From assembly GCA_921293015.1 (NCBI GenBank), contig OV121089.1, positions 38,922,520 to 38,986,519 on the forward strand: 64,000 nt of DNA. Reading direction: 5' to 3'. Position 1 is the stretch's first letter. Every line of letters begins with the position of its first letter. Origin of the DNA: Phorcus lineatus (lineage: Eukaryota; Mollusca; Gastropoda; Trochida; Trochidae). The position numbers and the translations under genes are program-made. The notes under the pieces are model-generated. The model was not told the DNA's origin, searched no databases, and was given only the letters and a program-made list of their open reading frames with translations. Below, piece by piece: positions 3,901 through 63,870 of this stretch.

Positions 3901-4654
3901 ACAGCAGTCTGTTGGTTGCTGTGAGGGTGTCTCCAGGACTGGTGATGAAGGACACATAGTCAGCTGTTGCTGCACTGCCATACAGTCTCCTGGTGTCTGT
4001 AGAGTTCAGTCTTCCCATTATGACACTGCCATTAGTTCCTGCAAATCGCATTTGTTAAATTAATTTATATAATGAATTCAGTAGTGGTAGGTTCATATAT
4101 GGGTTCTGGCCCAACGGTGAGAAAAAGATATTTAACACAGTAATAATATCAAAGCAAAAATTGATTTTTTTGCTCTTTGGTCTGGCTGAATGGTGAGAAA
4201 AGGACCAGAACCCATTTTTACAACACAATTGAATAAAGAATAAAAATTTATCCTCTTATGTTAATTTTGATAAACTCATATATATGTATATCAACCTCAG
4301 GTTTGAATCTGAAATCCAATTATTTGATTCACATGTACACACAATGTATTTGCAAAGTCCAAAAGAAAGATTTTGCCTCAATGAGTTAAGAGGTGTACCA
4401 AAATTAAAATCTAGAATAAAAGAGTTCCTAATTTGTTTTTAAGTACAGATATCAGATTTCAACATGATAAACAGTGATGCAAAAATTGCTGTAATGATTT
4501 TACAATTAAAACCAGAAAATTTGAATCCTACCACTAGCTGAGACGGCGACTTTTATTCCAAGAGACCCATGAGGAGAAGTGCTGGAATCTTCTTCTTTTG
4601 TGAGGTTGAACTGTTGTTCTTTTGGTTCTACTTCAATGAGAATATCTTTTTGTC
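853..4654 (-). CDS. Gene A, exons 42-48: C-terminal region with cadherin-like repeat and uncertain last exon
   Basis: Exons are 4654-4532, 4038-3894, 3496-3360, 2977-2925, 2662-1819 and a last exon starting at 1571. A W-x6-W-x3-C segment followed by MFALFEI resembles the end of GAIN-type or similar extracellular modules. The 844-bp exon contains an acidic cadherin/CSPG-like repeat with VVCVNDPPEL. The last exon can read to TAG at 1495, ending in SNVGV. Alternatively it can be cut at AAT|GTAGGT (last base 1507) and joined in the same phase to an exon at 999 that ends at TGA 853. I see no transmembrane helix or GPI signal, so secretion is the simplest reading. Confidence 0.7.
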
Positions 4655-10600: not shown

Positions 10601-13600
10601 GGACCTATTCCAAGAGCAACATAGACATCGCTGATGCCACTATCAGGATCAGATGCTCGCCATGAGACTGTCATCTTTGTGTTGTCAGTATAAACGATTG
10701 TGCCATTTTCAATTTCCTCATCTTCTTTCAATGGGCCAATGTGAACCTGAAAGAGAATGATCACACTAACACGTGTATATCATCATCATCATTACTTAAA
10801 GTTACAAAGACAATGAAGTTTAAGCTTTATTTTTATGCTTTGATACCCATACCTTTGTAAAAAGTAAATATTTCATACTCACCAGTTCCATGATAGGTGG
10901 AGATGAGTCGATCATCACACCAGTCGAATCAGCTGTTTTCGACATCTTTGCCTTGTTGAATGCAACAACATGGGCAAAATAACGTGCACCGTCTTCAAGG
11001 TTAAGTTTAGTCAAATTGTAGTTCATCTGCGATGTAACTGCTGGTATTTCCTCAAACGATTTCGAAGTTGGCCATATCTTGGTCTTCATTCCTAAGGAAT
11101 CCTTCATTATTTTCACCTGGTATTTGTCCATTCCTGATTCATCATCTTCAAACTTCCAGGAGAGTCTGAGGGTAGTCTTGTCTGTCTGGTACTTGTTGTC
11201 TCCAGGATTATCACGGACGAAGTACACAACAGGTGGAGTCAGGTCAATCACAAACCCATCAGTCTTTGCAGTGACCTGAGTTCTTGCTCCATTGTATCCT
11301 CTGATGACTGAGTGAACCCTGTCGCCCTGATGAAGATCAAGCGTCTTCTCATTCATGGTGTACACATCCTGATGAGGTTCTCCCATAAACGTGTTGGTCT
11401 TCCTGAGCTCGCCATTGATGAATATGTCCACTTCATACTTCCAGATTCCACTCTCAGGGTCTGAGAATCCTCCCCATACTGCCTGCACTAAAGCCGTCTC
11501 TGCTGAGTAGTCAATGTCTACATTTGCCGTGTCCCCGTCTTTGATCCATCCAATCACAGGGTCAGTGGTATCCACCAGAACTAGATATAGCAAAAAACGT
11601 TATATTAAGGATCACGCAGCATTAGTGTAACAGTAATTCTTTTTTGGATGGAGCTTCTTGCAAGATTGTGAGAAATCCATCCACAGGAAATGAGATAAAA
11701 AGTTAAAGAAATTTATTATTTCCTTAAATGCATACGTGATTATTAATGGGTTATAGGTTTATACATACCTCCATCAGATGTGGTGTTGGTTTTCTTCTGA
11801 TTGAGAGCAGTGTTGTAGGCGATGATGGTGGAGTAGTAGGTGGTGTTGTGGTGGAGCTGTACAGAGCTACAGATCCTGTGTACTGTTCTCTCCTCACTTC
11901 TGAAGGTGACTACATCATGACTTCCGGGACTGGTTCCTACTCCCCACATGAAGCTGATAAGAATATAAAAATTTTGTACACATCCAGGAGCAAATATTAT
12001 GGATTTTGGATTGATCTGCATTACATCCTGCTTCCTAAAATCTTATGTCTACATGTATGTGTCAGTAAATATTCTGAAACATCAAGTGATTTTCATATCT
12101 TCAAACTTTGATTGTTTAGATAAACCTAAAATCATTCTACATAGATTCGCCACAAAAATGATTCTGTGTCAGAAAGATAAATAACCACTAACGGATATTT
12201 TGTCTGAAGCGAAAATACAAATAGAGTAGCTTAAATTTTGATTTGTAGGTAAGGGTAATTTTAGGGTTAGTGTGTGGTTAACTGTCAATATAAATGCAGC
12301 TCCTTTAAGCAGTGGATCATTTGTAATTTAAATTGTTTATAAAAAAAAGGCATGTTTATTGTAGGGCAGTAACACTAAATTGTCTATTTTCGAGGAGCTG
12401 CTTTATCCTGAAAATGATGGAGACTGGTCTATACACTCAAACATAAAAGTTCAAGATGATGACATATCCCTTGCTCCGTTACAGTATGATATAAACACTC
12501 GGAAAAAGGTATTGCAACACCTGCTTATTAATGTCTTTCACGGGGGTTGGCTGGCTTTACTATGTTTGGGGTTCAGATTTTTTTTTTTTTTGGGGGGGGG
12601 GGGGGGTCATTATTAGGGTTCAGATTTTTATGTCTTGACATCTCAAGTGTAATTGCATGGATCTTGTTTGTAACTAAAATTGATACCTTTGGATTCCCGA
12701 CTCTGAGTCGTAGAACTTCTGCCACTGGGCACAAATCTGCTGGTCATCTGATTGGTAATCCAGGTCCGCGTTGTCTACGTTTCCGTCGCTCACCACTCCG
12801 GCTACGGGGGCGGTGTCGTCCACTATCAGAGGTTGTTCTGCATGACCACTTGTGGACAGGCCAACTGGAATATCGCGAGGTGTGAAAGTAATTGTGTTTT
12901 GATGCCTCCCAAAATATTCAGTTCCTAGCTGGTCAGTTGAGAAGCTTAAACATGTATTTTGAAAATTCGTTGCATCATTTTTAATGATTGAAAAAATATG
13001 TTTTAAATATTTCACATTGAAAATGACTACCTCGTAAGATATTTAGCAAATTTGTACGTATTCAGGTTATAAAGTTTATCGGAAGTATTTAATGCAACGT
13101 CGTATTAATTAAATTCGCATGAGCTACGTTATCGGATATTTCTAAATTGTACTTACAATCAGAAAATCGAAAAGGGCAGTCACTTTCGTTAATCCAATAT
13201 CAATACTAGTACTATGTTGTCAAAAAGGTTCATTTACAAAATTGTTTTATACACTATATTTCGTCCTTTGTTCTCCGATCAGAGGTAAGGTTATTCCAAA
13301 AGCTGCACACATTCCGTTTTCAACGAAAACGGTCTATAATTTTGACCATAGTGTTTTTAAATTTCTAAGCTGATAGCGGCCGTCTTAACATTTTCATTGT
13401 TGATTGTAGGTCAATTGTAAAGAATGATAAGTATTTCATTGCATCGTTAGGAGGCTAATGTGATTGTCTATGTCCACCTATGCCTTAAACTAGCCAATTG
13501 AACCGTAAAAGCTTGCTATCGTGCATTAAAGGTTACCATTATTTGTCAAACGCAATCGAGGCCATGCAGCCTGTCCCGGCTTGAGCTCGAAATCTTCAAC

Positions 13601-16600
13601 AAGAATATAAGGCTTGTCTTCCCCATAATGTTGGTATTCCATGTACGACCTTATGTTCACGTCGTTCTTCGTCCTACCAAGTCCAAAATGAACTTGGTTT
13701 ATCTTGGACAGATCGTCAGAACCGTTGTAGTACAACCCTAGCAGCTCGAAGTCCTCATCAAAGAAGAGGTCGTTGATTCGTCTGAAATCAGGAGGAGTCG
13801 TGTCCACAATAAGAGGTTGTGAGTGGCACACTGTGGTCACCAGAGCGCCACCATGGATAACGTTGTTGATGGCCTGAACTGTTGTATAGTAAGGACCATC
13901 CCGTAGCTGGAGTCCCGACTCAATTCCTTTAAATGTCCAGTCCTCTTTGCTGGGCAGGTTGGCGTGAGGATTGTTGAACTTGACCACGTCGTCGGAACAA
14001 GGCTTAGTTCCTACTCCCCAAGTGTAGCCATAGATATCGGTCTCGTTGTCATGGAAACCATCCCAGTTACCTATTGCAGAATGTAATAATATCTAATTCG
14101 AGAAGTGTTTTGCGAAAGGTTGGAGATATATGTTGCCTTAAGATATTAAATGTTACGTTTAAACATAGATTAACGACTTTCATAGTTTGATTTGATAAAT
14201 ATCATTCATTTGATATGATGATGTTTAAGATGGTGATGATGGTTATGATGGTGATGACATTGTTCACCTGCGAGAAGATTGTTTGCAAGAGAGTACTTCT
14301 CATCATTCAGTCGTTTTCCTCCATTGAAAACTGTGTTTGAACCAGTCCCATCAATAATCTTCCTGTGAAATAATGCATAACACTGATGTAATTTGCAAAA
14401 ACAAAATGCTGAGATTTTCTTTGATAAAACTATGAACATTTGAAACTACTTCTGAAGAGTTTGAGGTTACACTGGTTAAAATAGTTTTACATATATTACA
14501 TATTGACAACACGTTTTCATAACAACATATCTTTCATACTAGTCCAAGTCACACCTAACCTTTTTGCTATTTATGGTAGATGCTTTATATACGAAATCTT
14601 GACGCCTATTTATTTAAGCTTACATAATGAACCTATAATGAACGCTTCTTCACTATATACTACCGACCTATGGTTAGGCAGGTTGGAGGGATGTTTGCAT
14701 CTCTGTAGTATGGAAGCAGAACACCCCTCAGCTGTGACATCATCGTTGAGCGCCTCCCCCACAGGCCCGGGGGCAGGAGGTGTCAGATCTACTAGTGTCC
14801 CGTGTGAGGAGAGGAAGCTTCTGTACCCCAGCTCGTTCTTTATGTGGGCGTTGATGAAGTAGGTCTCTCCATGAGTCAGGTTAAGGTTCGTGTAGAGCTT
14901 GTATTGTTTCTTCCCTACTCCAAGTCGTTCAAAGGACTTGTAGCTATCATGGACTCTAAGTTGAGCACTCGGACCTTCGCCTACGTTATGGAAGTCACAT
15001 GATCGGGAATTGTAGTCGTAGTCAAAGGATACACAGTTTTGACCGAACGAAACACATTCCTTGGCACAGACGTAATCAAACTGTGCTGTTGTGGATTTGA
15101 TTGGTTCAGCAGTGAGTCTACCAATCTTCGGCAGTGAGAAGAACTTCAGGTCTGTTGTCTCTTCCTTCCTCTCAGTTGTGTTCTCCAGCTGTATCTGACT
15201 CCAAGGATCCAGTTCACTGCCGTGTTCCCCTGCACTGAGTCCTAGAGCTATTTGCTGTTGGGGATCAACGTTACTGTCGTCCAGAACCACCACGGTACCA
15301 CCAAGTCGGAACGGGTTACTGGATATCCTGAAGTCGTCATCAACTCTCCCATCAGGAGGTGTGTTGTCATACGTGTGCAACATGCACTGAGTCACGGCTT
15401 CTCCACCTCCGCTGTTCCGCGCCTTCACCGTCCAGTACAGAGGAACTCCATTTGTCAGATCAGTCTTCATTGTCAGCGAATTGCCGGCAATCTCTGTAAA
15501 GCCAACAACGTCCGTCCCTCCAGAGTGTGTTCCTATAGCGTAGAAGGTCTTGACGTCACTGACGTCATCAACGGCAGTCACCTCCAGCAGGAAGGCCGTG
15601 TCTGAGGGATCTCTTCCCTCAAGCTGTTTCACCTCACATCCTCCTCCGTCTGTTTCGCGTCTCTCTCGGTGACTTGCAGCGTTCTTGGCAAATGAAGGGG
15701 GTGACTGGTCGTGACCTCTGTTCGGCAGCTTCAAAATATTTTTCCTGATAGCAGATGTTGAATACTTCCAGAGTGGAGCATTAAACACCTCGACATTGAC
15801 GAAGAGCAATCTCAGCTTTGCGAATGCATCGAGAACCAGCCTTAGAGGCACGAGTTCCATGTCCAGTTTGCCTCTAGAAAAATATAATACGAATTACAAG
15901 CATCGGTAGATGGTTATATGTTTATAAAGGATCTGTGTAACTTATTGTATGCGATATATATATACACACTTATAAATTGAACCTTTTTTCTACCACCTGA
16001 CTAAGGCCTCTTTTCACAAAGTACAAACATCTTAAGTTACTGAGGTATTCTTAGTACAATGTTTAAGAATTTGGATTTAAGATAACTCATAGTAAAGCAT
16101 GTTTTGTGAATGAAGGCCCAAGACGTGCATGGTAATTATTTCTTCTACACTTAATTTCCCTACCTTAGTTAGTGACTTCCTGATTTTAAACCGAATGTGC
16201 CCTAGATGAAATGTTCTTTCAGCAGAAAGAATCTGTGCGTATTGTTCCCTTGAACTGACGTTACTAATTCAAGGAGTGTATTTGATGAACTGGCGATTAA
16301 CAAAAAATTAAACATTAGTCAACCCAAATGAAGATAGATATATTATGGATATAAACATACCACAATGGCAATATTTTGCGAAAGACATGCATCTGCAACT
16401 AATTATCGTTAGTACTCTTTAATCGTATATTTGAGGTCAATTTCACAATGCGTGTTCTTGAGGAAAAGAAAACTTACTCAAGTTCGAGTGGGAACTTTGC
16501 AAATCCGATGGTTCCAGTGATGGGGAACTTGATCGTCATAATGTAACCAGTCAATCTCAAACCACCAAACGCGATACCGATGTCTATGTCAAGTTCTCCC

Positions 16601-39889: not shown

Positions 39890-42800
39890 ATGGGGATTAT
39901 AGTTTTTCTCTTGCTTCTCTCCATCTCTGATGTGTTCTGCAGACAGAAGTTCCATCACCGAGCCCGAGGGAAAGACTACGGGTACCTCAGAGACTGGGAA
40001 TTGGACTCCCGGGGCTCTGTCTCCAGGATAGTCAATCTGGATGAATTGGCGGATGTCAGGGTGAGATGTTGTCCAATTGTGTATTTTGAAGATGGTTCAT
40101 TGCAGGTTTTCATTAGGTCAATGGATTTTTAGGCATCGTATTCTTGCAAAATGCGCTGTAATTTATTTATGTTTGGTACAAACTTGGATGTTTCTTTCAT
40201 ATCGTAAATTATGATCTTTTAATAGATATATCATAATTGGATTTCATTTCTAATTTTAAGCCATGGACAGCGTTTGTTAATGTGTTATAGATTCAAATTA
40301 CGGGTATCCTGCCCTACATGTTGCATCTGTCATTTATACATGTTGTTTTTATAATCTATGCCAATCTGTTGTGTTTCCAAACAACTAACGGCATCTGCAT
40401 TACATACTCAATGCTCAATGTTTCTCTCATGACGTTTTATTATGTTCCTAGTATATGTGGATAATTTCATCGAAGGTCTTAACAATTACAGGTTGCCAAA
40501 AATAACAAAGGGGAGTTAATCATAAATTTGCGAGATGTGACCGAGACTTCCGGTTGGCAGCCAGGATGGTTCCTCATCTCATCTCATGTGCGACAGAGGG
40601 ACGGGTCAGGGGTCAAACACGTGTCCCTGGTGAGGAAGATATCACACGTGCATGTTGTCTCCTCGTCAAAGGTTCTGGTCAAGGGAGAAGATGTCAGGTC
40701 TTAATTATTGTCTATTATAGATATTTTCTTACGTTAGTTTAATAATTTGGTTAAAAAGACTGAAATGTCTTGTTTTGAATATTCAATATTGCAATTGTGG
40801 CCCAGTTTCAAAAGGCTATCACGTGTTACGTATCCGTATTAGCTATAAACAAAAACAGGATTTGTCTTTCAAGAGAATTCAAATATTATGTAAGAAAACT
40901 TAACAAAAACGTTAGATATTTCAGCAAAAACGTTAAACAAAATTGGTCATTTAGATGAAATCTAACATTACCCTTTTTAAATAATCGAGAAACCGAGAAA
41001 AGAATGCATTTTGTTTTGGTTTGTATTTTGTAAATTTCACTTCTAGTAAATAAATGTCCCTTCAAGGAAATATTCCTATGCATGTTATTTACCATTGTGA
41101 AGCAGCAGGAACGCTTCAAAACATGAATAATATCATAAATGATGCTATCATGTGCATTAGTTTTACACTTGTTTAATAATACTGCAAAAACTGTAGCACA
41201 AGAGTATCTTAAAGACTGATTAATAGAATATCCTTTGAATAAAAGAATTCCTGTTTAATTGAGTATAAAGTTTTATCTCTTATCACCAAATATAAGGTTA
41301 CATATGAACTGACAATTGCATTTGATTTTGATTGATTTCAGTCCACTTGAGCTGATTAGCGAGGCCCAAGTGCTTCTGAAGTACCCGGGTGCAGGGGACA
41401 ACCATGAACATCATCGTCACAAGCGCTTCGTCTCCGATTTGCTGTCAACGGCGCTCGACAAGATCAACTTCCGGGCAGACAACTCTGATGACATCATCAG
41501 ATTCAATCGGGACGCTTCCGGTCGTACATTGAACGAATACAACATCTACAAGCAGCATGGTCAAGAGGTCAAGGTGTCAAAAGTGGTCAAAGGTCAACAG
41601 GAAAATCTCCCGTCTGAAACTGATTTTCTACTGAAATGCAAGGACTGTTATGAAGAGCGGACGGTCGATCAAACTCTGTATGTCATCAATGTGTTTTTAA
41701 CAATTCAGTGATGATTTATCTAATTTACTCATATATCTATAATGAAAATGATCCTTTTTAAAAGTCAATTCATTCCTTCTTTCTTTTAACGAAAGTCACA
41801 CTCATGTTACCAACAGGCAACTGGATATTGAGAGAAAAAAGAAGGAAGCAAATCTGAAGCTGTTTTCATTACAGGTAACCAACTATTGGTGTCTTTATGA
41901 CCTTTTTTACTTGTAAGCCAATCAAGTTTAGTTGACACACAATATTGTAGATAAATGTTATTTCAAACATCTGATTTCAAGTTTTACTTTCCATTCTTGA
42001 ATGTATCCCACAACCATAAATGCCTTATTTTCTTACACCTATCTCCAGAGGATAATTCACAGATAGCTTGTTTTGAAAGTTAAAACAAAACTACCAAAGG
42101 AGCTAGCATAAAGAAAAGAAATAAATCTTTAGATAACGACTCAAATAACATATTTACCATATTCTATTATTTCATTAAACAATATCTTTAACAACACTAA
42201 CTATTGATTGCTGCTATTCAAAAGATTTATAAACGTCCTGTTCCAAAAGATTTTCAAAAAGGTTGAAATCTTAAAATTTAGTTATCACTTTTACACATAG
42301 AGGTTAATTCAATAATGATTGAACATTCATGTTTCATAATAAAACAGAAAATTGACATTTTCTATCCAGACGGAGATGAATACATCACTCCAGGTCGACT
42401 TCGAGCTGGAGACAAAGTCCGCTGTTGGAATAAAAGAGAAACTGTTGTTAGACTCAAGTTCACCAACGACTCTACGAACTCTGCCTCTCGCTGTGGTGGA
42501 CGAGAAACTGCCTCCCATACAACTAGTTGTTACCTACAACAGAAACGTGTACCTGGAGATCAACGCCACCTCTGACGGCCCGATGAAGTACAAGGGGAAA
42601 TACAGGGTTAATGGAAGCTATGTATCGTGTATGTATGTCTATATAATTAATGAGTAATGTGAAGATGATCCCAATTAAAGAAAAACTTCTTTTTGTACAA
42701 TGTGTATATGACACTAGATGTTACCTTACAAAGTAATTATCAATCTTCATTAAAGCTACCAAATTTCTTCTTTAAAATACATTTATGAAATGAAAATCTT

Positions 42801-43890
42801 TTACTAAGTGGGTTTATAAATTAATAAATAAATAATAATAAATGGACTAAACAACGATTATTTTATATAAGCCTCTCACGAGCGCCAAGGAGAAACCCCT
42901 GTGACGGACGTGACCACGTCAGGTTGGTCAGTCGGGGACAGCACATTCAGTGGACACTCGGACAAGCCCTACAACATATCCTTCAGGCTTTACCAGGAGG
43001 TAATGTACTCAGTTTTATTTGAATATTTACGGTATATTTTGTACGTTAGTTATAAGTTTAAAGTTTAATGTTTAGACTATTTACATAATATTATGTTTAC
43101 TTCCTAAATTGATAAATAGTAGAATATCTTGTGACTTATGTTTAAAAGTAATTTCATCATTCCATTACAGTCACGTATTCTCTTTGTAGGTAACTCTTCA
43201 GGCATCTATTAAGTGGGCAAACCACGACGTTGCTCTTCTGTTCACTCCACCGGAAGTTTCGAGTTTCCTCCCCTTGTTGTATGCACGGACAACTGAGAAC
43301 CCGTTCAAGCGATGTGAGGAAGCAACATTAACTGTTACCGGGGTCTTCAAATACGACAAAGCAGACTTTGTGGCAAAAGCTTTCCACAAAACAATTTGGT
43401 ATAAACTTTTTTCAAAACAAGTCGAAGGCCGTAGGCTAGCAATACAAACAATCCACATTAAATATGTAGAACTAGCAATGTGGGAAAATGTTTCCCAAAA
43501 CGCCCTGTTTATTTTGGGAAGTTTAAAAAGCACTGGTTACTCAAGTGAACAATATAAGCGCCCATTCTCTTCTAAATTGAAGTTTGTTGATGTCATGTCT
43601 ACATCAGGATTTGTCTACAATCCGATGAAAATGGGACAAAAGTTGATTAAGTCTAATGACTAGGATTTCATGGTTTATTCCGAAATGAAATAATTGCTCA
43701 AACATCTACATTTCAGGGACATCTTTTTGAGAAATGAAACAATAGTCAGCAAAAGTCTAGCAGAGGTGAAAGTTTCCCAACGTTGTGGTGCAAACTGCTT
43801 CAGTCATGTGGACCACTCCAGCGATAGCATGGACTCCATATGTGGAACAGAAAATACTAAAATCGTGCGAGGGGATAAAGAATTCGAGAA
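39890..43890 (+). CDS. Gene B, exons 1-8: signal peptide and N-terminal region of unknown family
   Basis: About 514 residues. After the signal peptide come a basic stretch (HHRARG) and a beta-rich part (GELIINLRDVTE, GWFLISSHV). An RHKR|F site at about residue 154 follows. The next exons alternate beta strands and charged turns (LQVDFELETKSAVG, IQLVVTYNRNVYLEI), with a few Cys pairs (LKCKDCYEE, RCGANCFSHVDH). The style recalls secreted sheet proteins such as lipid-transfer relatives, but I could not match a named domain. The exon at 42370 was read in the frame starting TEMNTSLQVDF because it joins both neighbours in phase. Confidence 0.7.
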
Positions 43891-46800
43891 GTAAGTCCGT
43901 ACTCTTCAAAGAAAAATTTCAGTTTCAGAAAGCGCCCTCGTATTTTCTCTAAAAGACACGGACATTTCCCTTCAATGTATAATACAAAGTTGCAAATCTT
44001 TAAGTATAATTCCGCGTGATCATGAAAAGGTAATGACTCTTCCAAAAGTGTTACTTATCCAATCTGTGTTGTGTTACAAACGTCATGACGGGACTGTAAA
44101 GAATCATTCCTTATGCAGGTTTTGTGTCCAGATTTTACTGAACGAGTTTATTATCATAGCTATAACAAAACACTTTTCCATTACAGGTTTACCGTTTTGC
44201 AATTAAAAAGTTCTCAACCCTCACATCTTGATTTGGCTTTATCTAGCATCTGATTGAATACCCCATTGCATCTTTGGTGTTGGAAAGTTATTGTAGCTGT
44301 CAAGAGATAACACAAAAATGCTGATTATTTTCCTTCCCTCATTGTCCGTGGATCAGGGCCAATACGAAGGAAATTTCTTTACATATATCATTTCTCACCC
44401 AACATTAACCTATACGCCAGATTGACCTATATCGGAGGAGACTTCATCCTGTTTCTATCTGAGGAGGCAGATCAGTCATCATGGTGCGGTACGAAGGGAC
44501 GAGCTTGTCATAAATGTACCTGGTTTGATAATGACGACAGCAAAGACGACGCATGCGCAGACCGATTGATGACATCCAGTGCTGCTGAGAGTTTGACGAC
44601 TTTGGGTCGACTCGTATCTGAGGAATGGCCTAAAAGTTAGTCAATATGCTTATTAGCTTATTTTAATGCTATAAACCTGCTATAAATCTATGCGTCAATA
44701 GATATTTTAACGTTGCTACCATTCTTTGAAATCGAAAGCATTTGCGGATGTATCCTCGAATCTAATTGACAATTGATATAATTTAAAATTAGATTTTAAG
44801 CGTTATATGAGGGATTTTGTAGGTCTCAGGGCCAGTTTCAACTCGATGAAGACCATACCAAGCTTATTCTATATATTTTCATTTAAAAAAAGTTACAAGT
44901 GATAAAAAATATTGATTTGATTTGTATGTTCAAGGAAAACTTGTCGTTTTGGAATCATGGGATGAACCAACATCAAAGGATATCGCGGGAAGTCATGGAG
45001 TTACGTCCCTTCATTACTCAGGGGGAGCACTGCAAGTAGGTTTGTCAGCTGAAAATCCTAGCAATTCTTCATCATTGACAATAGACACAGAGAAATCACG
45101 TCTTAGTCGTTTGGCCCAACTAGCCTCGTGTTCTGGTTTCCCTTTTGCTGATGTCACTTCCGGTTACGTACAAATGTGTGTACGGAGTGATCAAGTAGAA
45201 CACAGAAGAATGAGAAGATCAATCGGCGATGAAGAATCAGACGAGTTTGCAAGAGAAGAACTTATGAAAACCCTTACAAATATCGGTATGTTTATGATAA
45301 AGATTCATAATTTACTCAACCACTGATCCTATAACGGACTGTTCTTATTTGCAACGTTTCGATACATCATCCCTGTTTTGACACATTGACAAATATTAAA
45401 CATTTTGGTTGACAAGTTGGTACAAGTTTAAACATGGCAAATTGAATCCTTCTAACCGTTTCCTAGAAGCGTACCTTGAGACTTGGGCTTCATGGGGATG
45501 TTGAAGTTATTTTCAAAGAATCACCCTCAGTTTTCGTAGACTGACAATTAGATGTAAATGAAGTGCTCTAATCACAGGAACTAGTTCGGTACCAATCACG
45601 TGTAAATCACACCACGGAGCGGTGATGTCTGCGCAAACCAGAGATGAAGTCATCAATCCGATTCTTCAAGAACACGACTATCAAAAGGGGTAAGTTGTCG
45701 TATCTCTTCACGGTACCGAATCTATTGGCTTAAGAAGGAAAAAATGACTTCAAAGCCATGGCATAGATAGGTAAAACAAACTGAACAATCTCTTTAATAA
45801 ATTAGAATTCAGATTGGCACAACAAACGATGATATTGGTAAATAGTTAGCCTGTATCGAGGTTTTATGCCATATTTTATTTACATTCAAAAGGTAAATTT
45901 CATTTCATGTTATCTCGGATTTTAACTTTGTTTATTACAGTCTCGTTCAATATATGTTCAATGACGTGGATTTCAAACCGGAAGGATTATCCTACTCGAC
46001 GTGTTACCAGCCAACTCGAAGGTGCAGATCTACATGTGAAGTCTCACACCGCAGAGAACCCTGGGACTGGTGTCAGACACGGGCTATAACTCCGCGAATG
46101 GCGATACGGCTCCGGAGATTGGCAGTCATTGTGAAGAATAAAACCAAAGGTACCGAAAATGGATCTCTTTTTCAGGGAACTGTTTGAATATGCTTGTTTT
46201 GATATTTGGTAAGACGACTTCAATTAAAGTATTGTGCTAGTTAAAATGACAGTTATTTTCAAAAATACAATATGGTAATTATTCGACATATTAGTGAATC
46301 TTGATCGTTAAAATGTTGTCTGGTTTCCATTCGATAATATTCCTTGGACAATGCACAAAACTTATCGTAAGACACATAGATAACTTGAAAGCAACGGTAA
46401 GTTGGGCAAAAAAATTCATTATAAACCGTTTATGCTTTATCAAAGAAATCGAGTTCTCACATGTGCAGCTAGGCTATTATACAGACAATTCTCTTATTTG
46501 AAAAGAAGTTGAACAGATAAAGGAGAAACGACTTTTCTGCAAGAGAATTACAGTCATCTGAAAGATACTGACCAAATGTGATTCGGGTACATGCACTATA
46601 TTAGAAGTTATGATTGATGAGATATTGTGCCCAGATTTGATATTGATGTTTAAGGAGGTAGAGTGTCAGTGACGAAGCCGATATACAACGACCATAGAGG
46701 AACTGTTAAAGGCATCATACGAAACAAGGACTATGAACTCCATGGCAGGTAACATGGTTTAATGTGCAAATTTATTCAGTTTTTGTATTGAATATCACCA

Positions 46801-49800
46801 TATATCGTTCTTATGATATCTAAATATATACTCGTATTTCCCTTAAAACGCAACATGAAACATTTTAATCTTGTTTGATTGATGGTTTACTTTTAAAAAC
46901 ATTTATTCAGTACTGTTTTTATCTAGCTGAAACGTTGTACTTCAAGAATAGTTTATGAGCACGAGAGTATGAGACGGTTACTCCTTAATATCGGGACGGT
47001 TTTATTGATTCGACTCTTTCTTCTTCAAAAAACTGTTCATCTATCTTCATACCCTTTTTCCAGGAAACTCCGTCTGTCGCCATCAAACCCACTCTCGCTA
47101 ACACCAATACAACTTCACGACTTCGCAGCATGCGCTGGATTCGACTTCATGGAGGTTGCCGAGCCTGGGTCAATCGATGTTTATGTCAAACTTCAAAATG
47201 GCTTCCAGACAACAGTTGTTCCTTTTCAGCACTCGACCTTGCTTCCGGTAAAGGTAAAGGACGCCGACTATGAATATCCAACTGATCTGAAAAACGAATC
47301 AAGGAAGACCTTTCTTTTTGACGGGTTTAACACGCACATTCAGCTCTCTCAGCACTTCAAAATATCCAACTTCAAGCATTCCGAGAAGAGATTCTTCCGT
47401 CTGGATCCCGCTCTCGTCGACTGTTTGGAGACCGTGGCTACGGATCTGGAAGATGGGTTTAACATCGTACCTAACTCGGTTTATAGGTACAAGGAAGGTT
47501 CTGTATTCCAAAAGATATAAACCCCTTCATACAGGGGATATAGTTAATTTCGTAACATACAATGTCACTGATAGCCAATGCTGTGTTTATTCGTTTATAA
47601 GTCTCAAAATGAAATTCTGAGTTTACCTTCTTTGGTAAAAGAGCCCGAGAAACAATGGTCTTCGAATGAGATCTTTATTATGATAACCTTTTCAGGGTGT
47701 GTTTAATAAGAAGCTTGCATTCAATATGCCTGATGGCCAGTGTTTCGTTCGTGCATAGGTGCCTAATGAGATAATTGATTACCTTAATTAAAGTCCTATT
47801 CTGCTTTCGGCTGAAACATCTTGTTAACAATGCTCGTTATTGAAATCTCGTATTCTAGCTACAAAAGGGACCAAACAATGTCTGTAAAGTGATTTTATAT
47901 ATATTTTGGTTGTTTTAATTTGACATGTTTTTACTTTTTGACATGTGATATGATTGAATTAGCAATCTACTATAATATATGTGACATCCTTTATGACCAT
48001 TGCTTAAGCATCTTACCATCTGTCGACCTTTAGATCTCACTCCATCAACATGAGAGACGAAGACAAAAGACACCCCGAGGAGAGACTGAGGTTTGAGACA
48101 GGACAAGCCGTCTATCTACAGGCCAGATCTAAAGATCCAAATGCACTTGTTGACCTCGCCCAATACACTCTAAGGCTCTGCACTCCCACCCTTAGACTGC
48201 AGTCACGTGGTCTCGGTATTGGTTGCCATAATGACAAGATATACATCGACATCCGTCCAATGACGTCAGGCGACGTAACTGATATCGCTGATGTGTGGAA
48301 CGTTGATAACCAGCCGCTGTTTGACAGCATAACAAAGGCCCTCAGCGAACTGAAAATGGGTACAGAAATCATATCCTCATACCAATGTGTCAAAATTTCT
48401 AAGACACTAAATACGTGAACTTTGTAGTGGTAGAAATGAAAGTAGTTCATCAACGTATATATTTGCTAGTCTGTATTGATACTGCATATTCGTCATCTTA
48501 TTCTTTTTTGGATCTTCCATAAATATTACAATTTTCATGATTTGAAATCATTCAAAGCCCACTTCAATCTTAAAATCAAGATGTTAAAAGAATGATTTAA
48601 GTTTATGGCTGGAGTTCTGAGAGCTGATGTAGAAATGAAATGGACTACCTTTGAGTCTACCAATATTATATCCTATGCGTAACTGATTTTGTGTGTACGC
48701 AACGAACGAATTGGTGGGAAAGTTTATTCGTTGCATCATTGTAAAACCTTCAGTCATACGGAGCATTGGCTTTAATCATATTTAGACTTTCACTTCTGTA
48801 ACCATAAAATGATAATATAAACGATTAATTCTTAGGTGGTCCCGCAATTTTCCCACTCAACCTTAAGAGGACGTGTAAGGAACCCCGACTGGGCCCTGAC
48901 TTCGCCTACTACTCCTTCAACAGTAAAGGAATTGGGTCTGTATATAACATCTGATACGGATAATGAAAAAAAAAACTCTTACAGAACTGACTTTAACTTC
49001 ACCTGTACAACTTTAGTGATTGTTAATAGCGTCAAACTTCTTCATTAACTGGCACATGTGGCCTTATTTTTTACTACATTCGAGTCAAATTATCAGCACA
49101 TCGGTCGCTTTCTATCTGGAAATTTATTTTATTTGGGAATATGACCTGCTACTGATCTAAGTAAATGAGATATTTGTGGATCATAGTCATGTCGTTACCT
49201 TGAAAAAGTCATAATGAAAACCCAGATGTAGTTTTAATATCAACGAGTAAATTACAAACCGCGCGTGGTTTTAACATAGATTATCTGTATTACAGATTTT
49301 GCTTCCATGACCGTGAGAGTAAGTTCTGCAAGGACACTAAAGAGGAGAGAAAACAAGAAACAGACAAACTTAGGGACCAGTTTATCAAGGTCTCGGGGAC
49401 GACCTTGACACGGGGACAACTTGAGAAGAATCTCCACGCATGCGTGTTTGACAATTGTGGAGGGTGTCCTGGAAAAGGTGAAAACCAAAAAATATTAACT
49501 TTTAAACCAATAATTTGGTCCACAGTTAACCCATAAATATTTTCTGCATAATGACTACCAGCATATGTATATGAGCATTATATTGCGGGCTTTTTCTCTT
49601 CCAAAAATCTTGTTTTAAGTGTGTTAGTGAAATACCCTTGAAGGCGGCGTTAACCTCAAAATCTGCTCTTCTCGGCCATGGTATGACACTGTTTGCGTTA
49701 ATCTTGCCAGAACCATGTATCCCTGCAATCACGCCTTTACAAGAAGATATAAAGAGCTTTACAAACATTTAATTCATTATTATTCAGGATTTGTTAAAGA

Positions 49801-52203
49801 TTATCTCTTTCAATGCATGGATATATTTCACCACATTGGCTGGGACAGGTCCGACCTGGCACAAGTATACGGTATGACAATGTTAACGTTAACCTTTCTA
49901 GAAACATACACCTTTTCAATCGGGCCTTTACATTCTTCATCTTTAAGATTTTACAAACAATTTTTCAACATAGATGGGGTATTATGTCTTTAAGGTTATC
50001 AATTGTATGGATAAATTTCACCACATTGGCTCGACAGGTCCGACCTGGCACAAGTATACGGTATGACAATGTTAACGATAACCTTTCTAGAAACATACGC
50101 CTTTTCAATCCGGCCTTTTCATTCTTCTTCTTTAAGATTTTACAAACGATTTTTCAAAATAAATGGGGTATTATGTCTTTAAGGTTATCAATTGTATGCA
50201 TACATTTCATCACGTTGCCTCGACAGGTCCGACCTGGCACAAGAAGGTGGAGGGGTGTGTGCATCTAGTGCACCTGTACCTGGAGAAGGCGAGGAACCCC
50301 TTCCAGGACGTGGTGGACCAAGCTGCCTTCTTCAACACAGAGAACCCTGACTCTAGTGTGCACTCACTCGCCTGTCATGATGGAGCCAGGTGTGTGGAGG
50401 ACACACAGATATACTCCCTTGTCAGTAAGTTTTTTTTGCTTTTTAGCAATTTAGCTATAGTTAATTACAAGTCTGTTGAAGTCAGACCGTGGTGCAGACT
50501 CATACTCGGGCAACATTGCGGTTTTTTGTTGTGTATATAGATTTAGCTGTGAAGAATGCGGCTGGTAGACAAATATTATATACGTCCAATACCCATTAGA
50601 ATTTTCTTTGCTGATCTCTCTCTATGTTCTAACCTTACATTTCTGCTTCATCCAGTGCCTCTGCTCAACTCCAAGTACAAGCCGGACCCCACGCTAAGTC
50701 AAGAGGAGCTCCTGTACAGTGGTCACGACAACCCCTCCCCAATCCCCTCTTTGCTGGAGCAGGAGTTCGCCAAACAGGTGGCCGGGGTCGTCAGGGTCTA
50801 CATAGAGGACGAATCGGATATGGCTATCCTCAGGGATGTCATCAAAGTACGTTTTCGAACTCTGTTACATCGCATTGATATGATGTTATCTTTTTGGAGA
50901 CGGTTGGAAATGTATCTGAAACATTAGATAACATGTACATTTAATTATGATGATGACAGTCTAGACGAATCGAATATGGGATATGCATTTGGTAATTATG
51001 TGATCCACAGTCTGAAGGAAAGGGTATCAATTATATCAAATCTTATCCTTTATTCTATATATTTTCATCGTTTAAAGCAATGGAAACAGCATCTTAAACG
51101 CACTAGTGCACACCAATATTTCTTTAACACAACGAATGCACAGATACTGCATATCTCTCGATATTATTTAAGATCCTCACTCAAGTAATCTACCTCGTAA
51201 GTTATTTAACGAATATTTACGTATTCAGGTAGTAAAGTTGATTTTTAAAGACCGGAAGTATTTAATGTTACGTTACAATAAATCCGCGTGAACTACGATA
51301 TCGGAAATATTAAGATTTTGCTTATAACCAAAAAAGCGGAAACGGCAGCTGCTTTGGTCAATCTAATAGCAATGCTAATGCTGTGTTATTAAATCGGTTT
51401 ATTTACAACATTGCTTTCATAAAGCATATTTCATGATTTGTTCTCAGTTCAGAGTTTAGATAAATTCAACAGCTGCACATAATAATTGTTCAGCCGCTTT
51501 CAACTGTCTATAATTTATCCGTTTTGTTCACAGCTAACCTTAGATTTGTTATATGTCCAAGCCGACAGCGGCTGTCTAAATTTTTTCATTGTTGATTGCA
51601 GGTCAATTGTAAAGAATTTTAAGTATTTCATTGCATCGATAGAAAGCTTAAGTGATTGCATAAGTCCTCTTAAACCTTAAAATAGCCAATTTAAACCGTA
51701 AAAGCGTGCACTAGTGCCTTTAAAGTTTACAAAGCAGCCTTTTTCACTTTGTTTTGTAACGAAATCAAGGTGTAAGGTACGATGAAAATTATTTGTGAAT
51801 AAAGGCCGGAAACCCTTCACACAGCATGTCATAAATTATCATAATATATTGATATACTCAATTTACGACTCTTATCATGCTTCATTTAGAGATCAAAACG
51901 AAACATAAATCGTGCTCTACTCAACCCCAGGTTCTGATGATCTACAACCGGAATGTCACTGAGGTGGAGTTCCACATAACGGAAGAAGTGGACGCAGACA
52001 ACGTCATTTCCTCTCTACAACGGAAGTTGGAGTATTGGGCCGGAAGCACGTGTCCAATGTGGAGCAGATTTGCTGTGGCTCCTTACAGCGTGCATCCGAT
52101 CCCTCACCATCGGAAGAGGAGGAGTTTGGAGAGAAGCAAAAACAGAAACGATGTTAAGAGATCGATCCGTGATTGGGAGATAGATTGGATAAAGAGGATG
52201 TAG
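39890..52203 (+). CDS. Gene B: secreted protein with three Hedgehog/DD-peptidase-type modules (20 exons)
   Basis: Exons are 39890-40060, 40492-40697, 41342-41677, 41817-41874, 42370-42628, 42872-42999, 43190-43398, 43717-43890, 44421-44635, 44935-45285, 45578-45689, 45941-46149, 46655-46748, 47064-47486, 48034-48359, 48836-48935, 49296-49477, 50227-50424, 50656-50846 and 51931-52203. They sum to 4,215 nt (1,404 residues) with all phases consistent. A signal peptide (MGIIVFLLLLSISDVFC) opens the protein. Furin-type sites occur at about residues 154 (RHKR), 680 (RMRR) and 1378 (RKRR), so maturation into several chains is likely. Three modules related to the Hedgehog signalling domain and D-Ala-D-Ala peptidases follow one another between about residues 515 and 1070. 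There is no Hint domain and no membrane segment. Two donors (GTCTTA at 40698, GTCTGT at 48936) are weak, so those joins are less sure. Confidence 0.85.
43399..43663 (+). other. Open extension of gene B exon 7 (retained intron or alternative end)
   Basis: Past the donor used in the main model (TTG|GTATAA), the frame stays open for about 87 codons to a TAG. Composition is not strongly intron-like. It could yield a shorter secreted form of about 540 residues without any Hedgehog-like module. Confidence 0.3.
44421..45285 (+). CDS. Gene B, exons 9-10: Hedgehog-like module 1
   Basis: The two exons give ACADRLMTSS (residues about 559-568), then VLESWDEP (591-598), SLHYSGGALQVG (611-622), LAQLASCSGFPFADV and GYVQMCVR (663-670). 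In Hedgehog N-domains the matching pieces are ADRLMT, VTEGWDE, SLHYEGRAVDIT, LAVEAGFDWV and HIHCSVK, in the same order and spacing. The zinc ligands of Hedgehog are the His of SLHY, the Asp of AVDIT and the last His of HIH. Here the first is kept, the Asp is Gln and the last His is Gln. An RMRR|S site follows the module, which could release it. A Cys-rich insert (GTKGRACHKCTW) precedes DRLMT. Confidence 0.82.
45578..47330 (+). CDS. Gene B, exons 11-14 (first part): Hedgehog-like module 2
   Basis: Exons are 45578-45689, 45941-46149, 46655-46748 and the start of 47064-47486. The order is QTRAITPRMAIRLRRLAVIV (matching the DRLMT helix), then VSVTKPIYNDHRG, YELHGRKLRLS (matching HYEGRAVDIT), FAACAGFDFMEV (matching AVEAGFDWVYY) and IDVYVKLQ. 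GRKLRLS has Arg in place of the zinc-binding Asp, and the HIH pair is replaced by SIDV, so a metal site is not expected. Extra Cys residues (CYQPTRRCRSTC) suggest added disulfides. It is weaker than module 1, but the collinear match and position support the call. Confidence 0.62.
47331..48359 (+). CDS. Gene B, exons 14 (end) and 15: DD-peptidase/Hedgehog-like module 3
   Basis: The segment LDPALVDCLETVATDL, then IVPNSVYRSHSINM, RLRFETGQAVYLQ, YTLRLCTPTLRLQSRGLGIG and KIYIDIRP follows the layout of M15-type D-Ala-D-Ala carboxypeptidases: an SGYR-like strand, HxxGxAxD, then WxH. The AVD-type Asp is Tyr (about residue 1009), the first His is replaced in RFETGQ, and the final His is Tyr in KIY. 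It therefore appears to keep the fold without the catalytic metal. It lies immediately after module 2, which makes three consecutive units. Confidence 0.6.
48836..52203 (+). CDS. Gene B, exons 16-20: Cys-rich C-terminal region
   Basis: Exons are 48836-48935, 49296-49477, 50227-50424, 50656-50846 and 51931-52203 (about residues 1091-1404). Cys residues are spread through short motifs (LKRTCKEP, FCFHDRESKFC, FDNCGGCPG, LACHDGARC). The last exon carries RKRR|S and VKRS, leaving a basic tail of about 26 residues after the first site. No domain is recognised. The exon at 50227 has its acceptor copied twice upstream by a 189-bp duplication. Confidence 0.7.
49813..50244. repeat. 189-bp tandem triplication carrying a splice acceptor and exon start
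   Basis: The phrase ACAG|GTCCGACCTGGCACAAG occurs with exon-side starts at 49849, 50038 and 50227, exactly 189 bp apart each time. The intervening DNA is near-identical between copies 1 and 2 and also precedes copy 3. Only the third copy continues into the real exon 50227-50424. In the first two, the phrase is followed by TATACG|GTATGAC, a potential donor, so each could act as a 23-bp pseudo-exon. Confidence 0.9.
50847..51930. other. Gene B intron holding a dispersed repeat
   Basis: This intron of about 1.1 kb lies before the last exon. About half is the dispersed repeat at 51190-51733. Nothing else is recognised. Confidence 0.7.
51190..51733. repeat. Dispersed repeat, copy 2 (intron of gene B)
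   Basis: Same family and orientation as 13029-13535 (shared blocks are given there). The copy has diverged by many point changes and small indels. Confidence 0.65.
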
Positions 52204-58663: not shown

Positions 58664-61600
58664 TCATCCACGTGTGATGCCAGTAAATTCTGAGAAGTGG
58701 CCGAACTTTCCAGTCTTCAGTTTGGCCAGCACGGTCAGATAGACACCGGTCATCTCATGTCTTGTATGGATCGTTATGGTCGTGTTAGCTGTCGATCTCT
58801 GATTGATGAGGTCAGTGTAACCCTTTCTCGTTCCCATGGAAACTATGTAGGTGATGTCATTGCTGACAACGTCAAACACTTTGCTCCAATCAACTGTTAG
58901 TGTGGAGTCGACAAGATGAACTTCAGGTTTGTTACCTGAAAGAGAGAAAACATTTTGGAATGAAAATTGTGAATATTGTGTTTTTGTCTTCGATGATCGG
59001 GTACAAAGCATGCATTTCTTTAAACAAAAGCAATAGAACAATATATGCAACGTCAGTGTTGAATCGGTTAGTCCTCATTGAAAATATGAACTGTTGTATG
59101 CTCTTAAACTACTATCTTTTTTGCAAATCAAAATGTCATTGCAGTTTAAAATCATGTTATCGATAAGTTAAATTGAGATCATAGTACGAATAATAATTAT
59201 AAAATGATACTTAACAGAATGAATTTTCAGTATTATTATCATCACACTTCACACCTGATTTGCATCAACCTTCTTAAAACGAGTAAACCAAAATAATGAC
59301 ACTTGTTTTCAGTGTTTCATAAGTTGTCGTGCTTATTAGAATGCAGTGCTTATGATCCTATAGACATTAAAGACATCAGAAGATTATGATACAGTATATA
59401 CCTCCTAACGAAAGCCAATTGTGTTATACTTACTTTATCTTAATTTGATGTTTTGCTCCTTTGATTACAAGATCTGCTAATGCTACAAAATCCTACCCTA
59501 ACCCATTTACCTGTTGTAGTTGGCGCTCTGCTTTCAACAAGGATAGACGCTGTGATAGGCTGACTGAGTTGATGTTCTGTGTCCACTGCCCGAACCTGGG
59601 CTTCATACAGATGACCGTCTGATAAAGACAATCCATCCAGTCTAAGATAATTCCTGTGTCCAGTCGATGTCCAATTCTTGACCACGACACTCCCATCAAG
59701 CAGCCTGCACTCATAGCTTGTGGGCGAGACACATTCCTCCCAGGTCAGATCAATGTGGTCTGTGTAGGTCTGTGTGTGGGATTGAAGGGCACCTGTTGAT
59801 ATCCGGTTGTCCACAAGGAAGGACATGGACTTCCTGTTGCACTCAGGACCGTGATGGAGGACTAGCAGCGGCTCGGATGTAATGGTTGTCTCCAAGTTGA
59901 CATTGTTGATACATTTGACGCTGGCGTAGATTAGTGAATTGTGTGGAGCAGATATGTTGTACAAAATGCAGTGGTCATTAACTGCTTCTTGCCAATTATT
60001 GACTTCGTGATGAGATGTTGCTGAAATGCGATGTTTAATTCACTGAATAATCAATAAAGTGAGACTGAATTAAAATCCAATGATTAAATTTTTTCAATAA
60101 GTTACAATATTGTCGAATCTATTCTTTACATTTCAAACCAAATCGTTTCTGCCAATAGAGGACCAAAATAATTCCATGCCCATCACATTGCCTATCAACA
60201 GACATATAATAGCCATGATGTAACGATGAGACATTTTAGAAATTAGAAATTCAATCCTTTATTTCAAGAAACCAACCTGATCCACAAAAGCATCTGTCCA
60301 CATCACTCTCAATATCCTTTCTGCTCCAGGTGATGTCAACATATACAGTACTAGGCAAAGGCGATCCGTAAAGGATATCAACTTTTGTGATTGTCACCTC
60401 TGGTGCTGTGTGGTCGATGATCAGCGGAGCTGATGTGAAGATTGATCTTAGTCCTGCCTGGTTTTCCGCCATGATTGTGACGTAGACCGGACTGCCATGT
60501 GGTTCCTTCACAAGGATCATCTCGTGATTACTGACTGCGGTGGGAGACAGGGCCCGGATCTGATACCCTCCCTGGCTTGTTCCAGCACCCATCCAGATAC
60601 TTCTGATGCCACTCTCTGGGTCTACCATGTTAGTGCACACGGCCACAATGGACGGACGGATTTGACGGACGTGGACAGCAGATTCTTTAGAAGCCATTAC
60701 AGTCGTTTTGCATGTGTGGACATCAATTCTTGCAATGTGAGACTCTTTGTCTTGCATTGTTAATGAGATATTAATCGTTCCATCCTCTGCAGAGATGAAT
60801 CGATGGGAAGCTACAATTTCACCTTTTTTATACTCAAAACGACCATATACGCTCAGTTGACCAATATTAAATGTGACGTGAGAATCTGACATGGACTTGT
60901 CTCCAAGGACTTCAACTTCATAAAGTGACCCTTTAACCATTGTGTACGTCGTCTTGAGTTCTGTTGTATCCCCTTTCCTCTCAGTTTCATATTTCAGTGG
61001 TATTGGTGGGAGATATTCCGTACACGTTATCGCATGAGGAGGCGATGTGTCAATCATTAGAGGTGGTGAGTAAACAACATCACTTATCAATCCTGCTGCG
61101 TCTACTGCTCGAACTGCCACTCTGTAGCTTTTTCCATCTGATAGTGTCAGGTTTTGTAACACAATATTATTGTCAACGCCTTTGTGTTTAAATGAATTGC
61201 TGTCAGCCGTTTGGCCATGTTCAAGCAAGGCTGCTTCAAAGTATTCGATATAGGAGCTGAAGTCCTCGAATCCATGCCATGAGACGCCGAATAAGTCTGT
61301 GGAGGTTTGAACTTGGATGTTTCTGTGTCGATCAGTGTTGAACACCACCCCAGCAACTGGCTTCATGTCATCGATCAAGAACCCATCTGATACCACCGTC
61401 GTCTCTAGTCCTGCTGCATTGGTTGCTCGAATGGATGCAAAGTACTTGGTTCCCGCTTTCAGCTTGGTAAGAGGCAAAGTATATGAGGTTTGATTTCCCA
61501 TGACCATCACATCGATGACATCATTACCTAAAGCAAGGAAAGATAAGATTGAAGGTACGACCAAACCACATAAAATTCAAACAATTTATGAATACAGACT

Positions 61601-63870
61601 ATAGAGAAACGTAGACATGCCCTGTGGTTGTGAATAAAGACATCCTGTAATACACTGTGGGGTCTAACTAAGCGCGTCTACACAAAAATACAATTTGAAA
61701 CATCATCTTTAACAAATATTCCTAGATTTAAATTGTTCTCTTGAGTAGAGGGTGCAGAATCAAACTAAATCTTACCCTCAGGGGATGTCCCGAGCCAGAA
61801 ATCATAGTTGTTTATTCCACTCTGTGCGTCTTCTAATACATTGTTCCAGCACGTTATAATTGTCTGTCCAGTTTTGAAGAATTCCTTGTCATCCTTGCAA
61901 TGTTCATCTGAATCCACGACTGACCTGGCTCTCTTCACAGTAGGAGGTGTATGGTCGATCTGGACCGGAGAGCTCTCTACTATTGTGTAGTGACTGAAAC
62001 TGAGCCAGAGTCGCAGATAAATTACATACTTGACTCTGTGCTCTAGAGCCTTCCCATGCGGAAGGCAATATATGATCTGTTGATTTCTGCCAGATGTCTG
62101 CCAAATTGGACCTAATGTCATGTTAAATATTGGGAATCCTTTCTTCTGTCCACTCTTACCCATTGTCCACTCAGTCCTTTTAATTTGGTGACGTAGATTT
62201 TGATCGCTCAGTTGCCAGTGTGCTGATATACATGATGCTGATTTTGAAAATTTCGTTTTTGTGATGAGCCCAGGTTCAATTCGTATGGCACGTTTCAGGG
62301 GATGGTCCTTGGACTCTGTGCAGTTTTTCATATCATCAGGAACTCCACACATCTTTCCAACAACAGCACAGGAACATTGGCCTTCGCAGTACTGGACCAC
62401 GCAAGAGTGACGTTCAATGTCAAGGGTTCCATGTGAGTGTTGTTGGTCAGATGACACCACACTAACGGTTAACTTACCAGCCTCACAGGACAGACCAGCA
62501 TCGTTCATTGCAGAGATTGTCAAAGTAATGTTTTCCCCATTTAGCAAATCATCAGTTAGAATCAGATCAGTGACTTGATCAACCTGTGTTTTATCGTGCT
62601 TCAGAATCTTTGAGCCCTCACTCAGTTCGTCACCATCAAATCTTCTGCTCACAGATAGACTGTATGAATCAATGGATGATTCGGGGTCAGAGAAACCATA
62701 CCACCTGAGATGAAGTCTGGTTCGTCTTGTGCCCTTGATGTCGACTCTATCCCATGTCAGTGGGTATTCAAAACCTCCCAACTCAGGTGGAGATCTGTCA
62801 ATGAGCACCTGTTGGCTGGATGCTGAAGCACAGACACCTGCTGCATTGCATGCTGTAATGGTTGCAGCGTAGGAGTCCCCGCTTCTCATGAGGTTCCCTG
62901 CTTCGAAGAGTATTGTGGTCGAGTCCTGTGCACCTAGATGAATACTCTCCACAGCGGCCGTGCTGTCATGGTGGGTGGACAAGGATATGAAGTGTCGTTC
63001 AATTGGACTCTCCTTGTCTTCGAATTTCCAGCTTACTTTCAAGACAGAGTTCTCCCATTGTACAGATATTTCCTGGTCTGTTTCTGAATAGGGGGACAGA
63101 AACTTTGGTCTGATGATGACAGTTGGAGGTGATACGTCTACAGAGAAAGAATCTGACTTTGAAGATGTGACAAGTCCAGCAGGGTTGGCTGCCCACACGG
63201 TTGCATACAGAGTTAGACCATGTGGGAGAGAGAGGCCGGTTTTTATAACGGAGTCTGATAACAAATTATTTGTTTTTGAAAGTACATCACACTTTCCGGG
63301 CGTTGATCCAACACACCATTCAAAGTGGTTGATGCCAGTCTGAGGATCTTCGAATCCAAACCAGCGAACAGTCAATGTCGACCTTGAAAGAGGTGGAAAG
63401 AAGAGTACTAATTTTATTGTTATGCATAAATACTACGGTCTATGATCACAAGGAATAAGGACGCTTAGATTAACACAGTTTTATTTCACATATCTCTCAC
63501 TTGAGTTATTTGAAAAATGACAATTTGAACAAGTGGTATTCGTCAATTTTGCAAATTTGACTTTGACTTAAGTAATAATAATGAATTATCAAGGGTTTGC
63601 TTTTGTTCAGTAGTCGGTCCACTTAAAAGAAACATAATCAGCTGAACACATAAAATATAGTGATTCAGATTCACATATGGACTTACGCGTGTCCATGATA
63701 TTTGTGATGGTGTCCGTCAGGGCCCACAGTGACGACCCCAGGGACAGGGGGTGAGTTGTCGAGGGTGATCCCGTCTGATGCTGAACGAGAGCACAGACCT
63801 CCAGCATTACACGCCTGTACCACACAGTAAAGCTTCACACCCAGGGGAAGACTACTCGTCCATGTTATGT
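58664..63870 (-). CDS. Gene C (5' partial): FN3-like repeat protein resembling the repeat array of gene A
   Basis: Visible exons are 63870-63687, 63382-61776, 61527-60277, 60020-59511 and 58935-58664 (stop TGA at 58666-58664). They form 3,824 nt in one consistent frame, about 1,274 residues. The 5' end lies beyond the right edge, since the first visible exon begins in mid-codon with an acceptor. Units of about 100 residues carry D-x-S/T-P-P linkers (LDNSPPVPG, VDVSPPTVI, IDRSPPELGG, IDHTPPTVK, IDTSPPHA, IDHTAPEV), FxDPxxGI and CVGSTPGKCD turns, and YxxTIxACNAAG strands. One short Cys-rich insert (CEGQCSCAVVGKMCG) breaks the array. The product ends in EFTGITRG without a membrane helix. It looks like a paralogue of part of gene A. 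Whether its upstream part also has a lipid-transfer domain cannot be seen. Confidence 0.85.

Follow-up and report, generated by a model that had tools for sequence, protein, structure and literature searches.

A candidate long-form Hedglet of the gastropod Phorcus lineatus with Hedgehog-type and M15-like modules and no intact zinc triad

What kind of protein carries several Hedgehog-like modules without an autoprocessing domain, and how might it act? The question is raised by a stretch of 64,000 nucleotides from Phorcus lineatus, called the window here (assembly GCA_921293015.1, contig OV121089.1 or C15, forward-strand positions 38,922,520 to 38,986,519; the genome comprises 958 Mb in 74 contigs). 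An initial annotation had placed at 44421..48359 a Hedgehog-like protein with three tandem, zinc-site-deficient modules and no Hint domain. We find there the middle of a gene that covers 39890..52203 on the plus strand, with 20 exons, 1,404 encoded residues and one terminal stop. Its product contains two modules of the Hedgehog N-terminal domain (HhN) kind followed by a third module of an M15-like kind. With slightly better than even confidence we propose that the product would be secreted, cleaved by a proprotein convertase and active outside the cell as a binding protein of several degenerate Hedgehog/M15-type modules, a long form of the proteins named Hedglets.

The coding sequence of 4215 nt forms one open frame and all 19 introns have GT-AG borders. 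Spliced alignment to the abalone protein P0001 (Haliotis) recovered exons between 39944 and 52200 without stops, and 804 of the 1380 residues aligned are identical (58%). Since this alignment begins at 39944, the initiator ATG (39890) and the 18 residues at the N-terminus are taken from the open frame. Early splice models had micro-exons of 2-25 nt, and none was left in the window gene with the Haliotis protein as template. Comparison with six paralogues from the same genome showed conserved exon phases and conserved coding blocks extending well beyond 44421-48359. Both ends of that segment are indeed exon borders, but the gene is three times larger and only its middle had been seen; inside the segment, the exon at 45578-45689 had gone unmentioned. 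A pseudogene or gene-model artefact is extremely unlikely: the prediction comes from DNA only and the aligner's penalties for stops and short introns are imperfect, but the counter-evidence comprises the 1,404-codon open frame, the identities to an independent NCBI-listed model and the same exon phases in six paralogues.

The gene is a member of an ancient family of animal proteins that has received little study. The protein searches were word-limited and covered at most about 8000 candidates, and the relatives described here are those among the matches listed. They come from gastropods, a cephalopod, bivalves and a hemichordate, and fall into two forms. The long forms, five from Haliotis (1360-1406 aa) and one from Argonauta (1385 aa), consist of an N-terminal region, two Hedgehog modules, an M15-like module and a C-terminal region. 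The short forms have an M15-like, a Hedgehog and a second M15-like module followed by the C-terminal region; they occur with 918-959 aa in Mya, Mercenaria, Mactra, Potamilus, Haliotis cracherodii and the hemichordate Ptychodera flava. Solemya and Pinctada models of 1197 and 1691 aa were also found, as were six further short-form relatives on contigs of 2.9-3.9 kb, each with a frame of about 950 codons; these contigs look like spliced transcripts. Database tables assign PF01085 to all 20 relatives, and most orthologues are labelled 'uncharacterized protein'.

Module 1 lies at 43778..45191 on the plus strand (borders hand-counted from the reading frames) and is encoded by the rest of exon 8 (43717..43890), which holds its N-terminal part and has a counterpart of 177 or 180 nt in all six paralogues, and by exons 9 and 10 (44421-44635 and 44935-45285). 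That this module is collinear with the Hedgehog N-domain, as first proposed, was borne out. The Pfam profile HH_signal (PF01085) matched the spliced window protein with E 1.2e-15 and 58 bits (cut-off 22.1) at residues 483-584 of the first splice model, which was without exon 2. A profile of three family members matched the Desert (1.3e-15), fly (2.5e-15) and Sonic (3.2e-15) Hedgehog chains in the PDB, and Desert, Sonic, Indian and fly Hedgehog at 1.3e-15 to 5e-14 all aligned to module 1. Individual exons gave only sub-threshold HH_signal scores (13.9, 20.8 and 17.2 bits), so splicing matters for recognising the HhN domain. Module 2 (45586..47196, plus strand) is encoded by exons 11 (45578..45689, its N-terminal part), 12 (45941-46149) and 13 (46655-46748) and the first part of exon 14 (47064-47486); in 6/6 paralogues a 145-nt exon of the same phase occupies the exon 11 position. 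HH_signal matched module 2 in six of seven family members (best E 4e-10), the exception being the window's own copy, which taken alone had no Pfam match. The family profile of module 2 matched Sonic Hedgehog (E 7e-12), and hhalign aligned modules 1 and 2 with a probability of 99.7% (E 1e-25). By these comparisons the two modules are homologous and both reach canonical Hedgehog. A phylogeny including canonical Hedgehog, which had been suggested at the outset, was built as a module tree without nine of the source proteins. It has open forks, and long branches lead to Argonauta module 1 and to canonical Hedgehog; on that account we make no claim from it about the origin of module 2.

Module 3 (47305..48262, plus strand), encoded by the remainder of exon 14 together with exon 15 (48034-48359), is followed by about 345 residues. 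The idea of three tandem Hedgehog modules holds for modules 1 and 2 and fails here: hhalign gave no match of module 3 to canonical Hedgehog (probability 0.76%), module 1 (0.26 and 0.3% in two comparisons) or module 2 (0.46 and 0.1%). Module 3 did align with the first and third modules of the short forms, A and C, at 97.4 and 98.7%. All Hedgehog-kind against all module-3-kind sequences scored 24.2 (probability 15%; E 0.0018, counted as one comparison) over 57 columns, which take in an H..G.A motif. None of 60 column shuffles reached this score (maximum 19.3), a reversed alignment gave 14.2, and canonical Hedgehog alone against the module-3 kind gave 0.37%. Sequences of the module-3 kind partly show the H..G.A register, and Peptidase_M15_3 matched them weakly: in one of three members at 0.018, three of seven at 0.089, one of nine at 0.0091 and two of 15 at 0.061; the window's own module 3 had no such match in the Pfam scans of seven and 15 members. 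We rejected these matches as proof of M15 membership: they were never above the cut-off and unrelated families scored as well in two of the scans, SNaCT6 (0.0062) and HTH_55 (0.0085) ranking ahead of M15_3 (0.0091) in that of nine members and KH_DEAH11_2nd (0.018) and US30 (0.05) ahead of it (0.061) in that of 15. Matches of module 3 in the PDB ('Cake' repeat proteins, through a recurring match of 17 residues, PCGF1 and some others) were judged to be due to chance. By sequence, module 3 appears to be M15-like and of another kind than HhN, with a weak tie to Hedgehog; it probably shares the Hedgehog/M15 fold, short of proof.

Zinc positions were assigned in modules 1 and 2 by alignment with the genome's own Hedgehog and in module 3 by the register of the M15-like motif. 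The Hedgehog triad H-D-H reads H-Q-Q in module 1, E-R-D in module 2 and F-Y-D in module 3, and the motif H-X6-D, H-X-H is found in none of the three. The loss of the Asp and the last His from every module, proposed in the initial annotation, is thus confirmed, and the first His is retained in module 1 alone. We extended the comparison to 13 long-form and 13 short-form sequences, with six module types and 78 modules from Haliotis to the hemichordate. The partial Pinctada protein P0015 was excluded from module work, leaving 13 of 14 short forms, and P0020, a poor model, stayed in this table while its module A was dropped from the hhalign profiles. Not one of the 78 modules has an intact triad. 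Twelve of 13 module 1 sequences keep the first His, as do 13/13 short-form Hedgehog modules and 12/13 third modules of the short forms. In module 1 the Asp column reads Q in seven, V in four and A in two sequences, and the last-His column Q in four, H in four, E in three and K in two. The first module of Mya, which retains the H and D, was considered as zinc-competent and ruled out, its last His being Gln. That one of the modules has remained enzymatically active, through another metal centre or mechanism, could be imagined from the short-form module A, where H-X-H is retained in 12/13 and Glu replaces Asp in 6/13, and from four of six paralogues, which keep the first and last His of module 1 and have lost only the Asp. 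The same A modules have lost the first His in 12/13, and the window modules retain one, none and none of the three ligands, which makes this very unlikely. Since the triad is absent, M15-type peptidase activity is not expected.

With zinc chemistry lost, the protein would work through binding, and module 1 offers a candidate site. The calcium site of vertebrate Hedgehog is the surface that binds CDO/BOC-type co-receptors and HHIP. Its ligands in the mouse are E90, E91, D96, E127, D130 and D132 (PMC8052667). In the window, module 1 retains five of the six, together with the first zinc His. Among the 13 long forms the columns of E90, E91, D96, E127 and D130 are retained in 13, 12, 12, 12 and 12 sequences, the exceptions being three columns in Argonauta and one D-to-E change; in the short-form Hedgehog module E91, D96, E127 and D130 are retained in 13, 12, 11 and 11 of 13. 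Because the calcium ligands of module 1 are under constraint, the protein would most likely act by binding other proteins in a calcium-dependent manner, either at the cell surface or in the matrix. Several observations weigh against this. Module 1 lacks the sixth ligand, D132, whose position coincides with an insert following WDE; in Argonauta three of the other five are missing from module 1 as well; and module 2 is down to one, the first (E90). Constraint in module 1 is not on calcium alone, as the first His is kept in 12/13 and the last in 4/13, and the calcium ligands may serve folding only. A natural, long-conserved family without the zinc triad but with most module 1 calcium ligands sets the two sites apart evolutionarily, so that the function of each can be tested; the purpose of the Hedgehog zinc site, and whether it has a catalytic role, continue to be debated (PMC6027127, PMC8052667, PMC11266112).

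The absence of a Hint domain, also reported at the outset, was upheld. No Hint match at E <= 0.01 was found on the window's contig C15, compared with 15 elsewhere in the genome, and the frame of the gene closes at 52203 without a Hint/Hog autoprocessing domain. In Hedgehog the HhN domain directly follows the signal peptide and starts at a palmitoylatable Cys. In the window protein it does not follow directly: 476 residues precede module 1, which begins at residue 477. As the protein has neither Hint nor the N-terminal Cys, the lipid modifications of Hedgehog are not expected. One canonical Hedgehog is present on contig C17 with its Hint exon. In its second exon (L024) we noted WDEGM, compared with WDED in Desert and fly Hedgehog, and D132 is seemingly replaced by Gly. 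The 14 further Hint matches, on C9, C16 and C37, nine of which lie within 407-543-codon open frames, are perhaps, at a guess, an expanded Hog-type (Lophohog-like) family.

The presence of a true Hedgehog in the same genome bears on the idea of a natural modulator of Hedgehog signalling, in which module 1 would act as a decoy ligand against true Hedgehog for CDO/BOC/HHIP-like partners or Patched. Module 1 is of the Hedgehog kind with its five calcium ligands, and all animals with Hedglets are reported to have Hh (PMC8052667). Co-occurrence in one genome is weak evidence, however, and the Cys for palmitate is absent; we regard the decoy as unlikely, if worth keeping in mind. Broader and more doubtful is the conjecture that zinc-dead, calcium-ligand-keeping Hedgehog relatives, as old as the Bilateria, would be built-in extracellular partners or antagonists of Hedgehog co-receptors, the extra Hedgehog module and the N-terminal region being additions made in molluscs; Hedgehog modules would then have taken on a further role as calcium-dependent binding domains.

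The favored reading as a processed extracellular binding protein further assumes secretion and cleavage by a proprotein convertase. Exon 1 (39890..40060, plus strand) encodes a signal-peptide-like start, MGIIVFLLLLSISDVFC, recognised from the reading frame. With its hydrophobic N-terminus, 32 Cys and nine N-glycosylation motifs the protein is apparently secreted. Its RX[KR]R sites include a furin-like RHKR at residue 151 and a basic RKRR-S at residue 1375; all nine short forms compared share a dibasic KR close to the C-terminus, and the Argonauta protein has no strict RX[KR]R site. Secretion, cleavage, calcium binding and any partner are inferred. A Pfam search of the window protein at E <= 10 returned HH_signal only, without VWA, cadherin or EGF domains. 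The N-terminal region of the long form, encoded by exons 2-4 (40492-40697, 41342-41677, 41817-41874) and 5-7 (42370-42628, 42872-42999, 43190-43398), had no useful Pfam match. The Cys-rich C-terminal region, common to long and short forms and encoded by exons 16-20 (48836-48935, 49296-49477, 50227-50424, 50656-50846, 51931-52203; all plus strand), gave only a sub-threshold DUF4304 in Pfam. A 189-bp tandem repeat of 2.3 copies at 49810-50243 ends inside the exon at 50227-50424 (labelled exon 17) and duplicates the 3' splice site and first codons of that exon. In the paralogue L019 an 88-bp repeat of 6.1 copies (3905-4439) likewise duplicates the 3' splice site and the start of a module 1 exon.

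The P. lineatus genome holds at least seven long forms, the window gene and six paralogues on C7 and C32, and one short form on C2. Two aligned paralogues are 34-36% identical to the window protein. All six paralogue models are free of stops; in five or six of them micro-exons persist near the N-terminus and near residue 270, and models with micro-exons have no exon 2 counterpart, these parts being unsure. The ratio of non-synonymous to synonymous substitution (Ka/Ks) was 0.16-0.26 for the 15 pairs among the paralogues, which shows purifying selection among them on average; the six pairs with the window gene were saturated and gave no value. In a full-length tree that included five of the 14 short forms, the window gene and the Haliotis proteins formed one cluster (100/100), the six paralogues another (100/100); the two clusters joined apart from Argonauta with support of 86/88 and long branches. 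The paralogues (L017-L022) form three opposite-strand pairs, with 0.19-0.34 Mb between partners, at 3.86/4.06 Mb on C32 and at 56.37/56.71 and 61.03/61.36 Mb on C7 (Ks 0.20, 0.33 and 0.11). The copy number might suggest a role in immunity or as a barrier, in which a protein expanded by duplication would bind peptides of bacterial cell walls via degenerate M15-type folds. Hedgehog and M15 enzymes have a common fold (PMC6027127), and the ascidian haemocyte protein rusticalin has a domain resembling the L-alanyl-D-glutamate peptidases of bacteria and phages (PMC6339383). Yet the zinc residues are gone, selection is purifying on average and each named short-form species has one protein among the matches listed, so that we consider this role distinctly improbable.

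How does the family relate to known systems? Compared with canonical Hedgehog, modules 1 and 2 are HhN domains by sequence, but the window protein lacks Hint, the N-terminal Cys and the zinc triad and has two HhN modules in tandem with an M15-like one. Drosophila Hedgehog is a true ligand with one HhN module and Hint. It too is zinc-deficient, with H-X(6)-T and H-X-Y (PMC6027127), a loss comparable to H-X(6)-Q and the last-position Q in module 1. Nematostella Nv 200640 we take to be a Hedgling. It is a large extracellular protein with a Hedge domain and no Hog, as here, but with VWA, cadherin and EGF domains (PMC2362128), which Pfam did not find in the window protein. Lophohog is likewise a lophotrochozoan Hedgehog relative, but combines a Hog domain and an N-terminal domain unique to it (PMC9695228); the window protein has no Hog.

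The closest description is that of Hedglets, named in passing in a 2021 paper for molluscs, echinoderms and cephalochordates, said to be less conserved than Hedglings and of enigmatic distribution (PMC8052667). Like them, the window protein and its relatives are Hedgehog-domain proteins of molluscs and a basal deuterostome outside the Hedgehog gene, with catalytic residues lost, and the window's genome has a true Hedgehog. According to that paper, which trimmed sequences to about 105 residues for alignment, conservation of all catalytic and calcium residues stops short of Hedglets, and its available text does not list the lost residues; this agrees with a family without zinc triads in which calcium ligands are missing, one in module 1 and five in module 2. 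The multi-module layout and the two forms are absent from the same available text, and module 1 here retains five of six calcium ligands. The family is likened to Hedglets by description. The kind is therefore already known, from Hedglets and from databases, and the initial suggestion of a possibly undescribed protein survives for the architecture: in open-licence PubMed Central papers, most subscription papers lying outside this scope, we found the word 'Hedglet' in PMC8052667 alone and no description of the full architecture, the two forms, the hemichordate member, the expansion within a genome or the calcium-ligand retention of module 1. The present family adds an architecture and taxa (gastropods, cephalopod, bivalves, hemichordate) to this enigmatic distribution.

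On the minus strand the window contains long open frames resembling large extracellular proteins at 1796-15893 and 59440-63432. A Pfam scan of the frame at 61765-63432 gave no matches; elsewhere on this strand fn3 scored above cut-off at 5823-9188, and a PAN match at 14610-15890 and a Big_9/cadherin-like match at 1796-2662 were also found.

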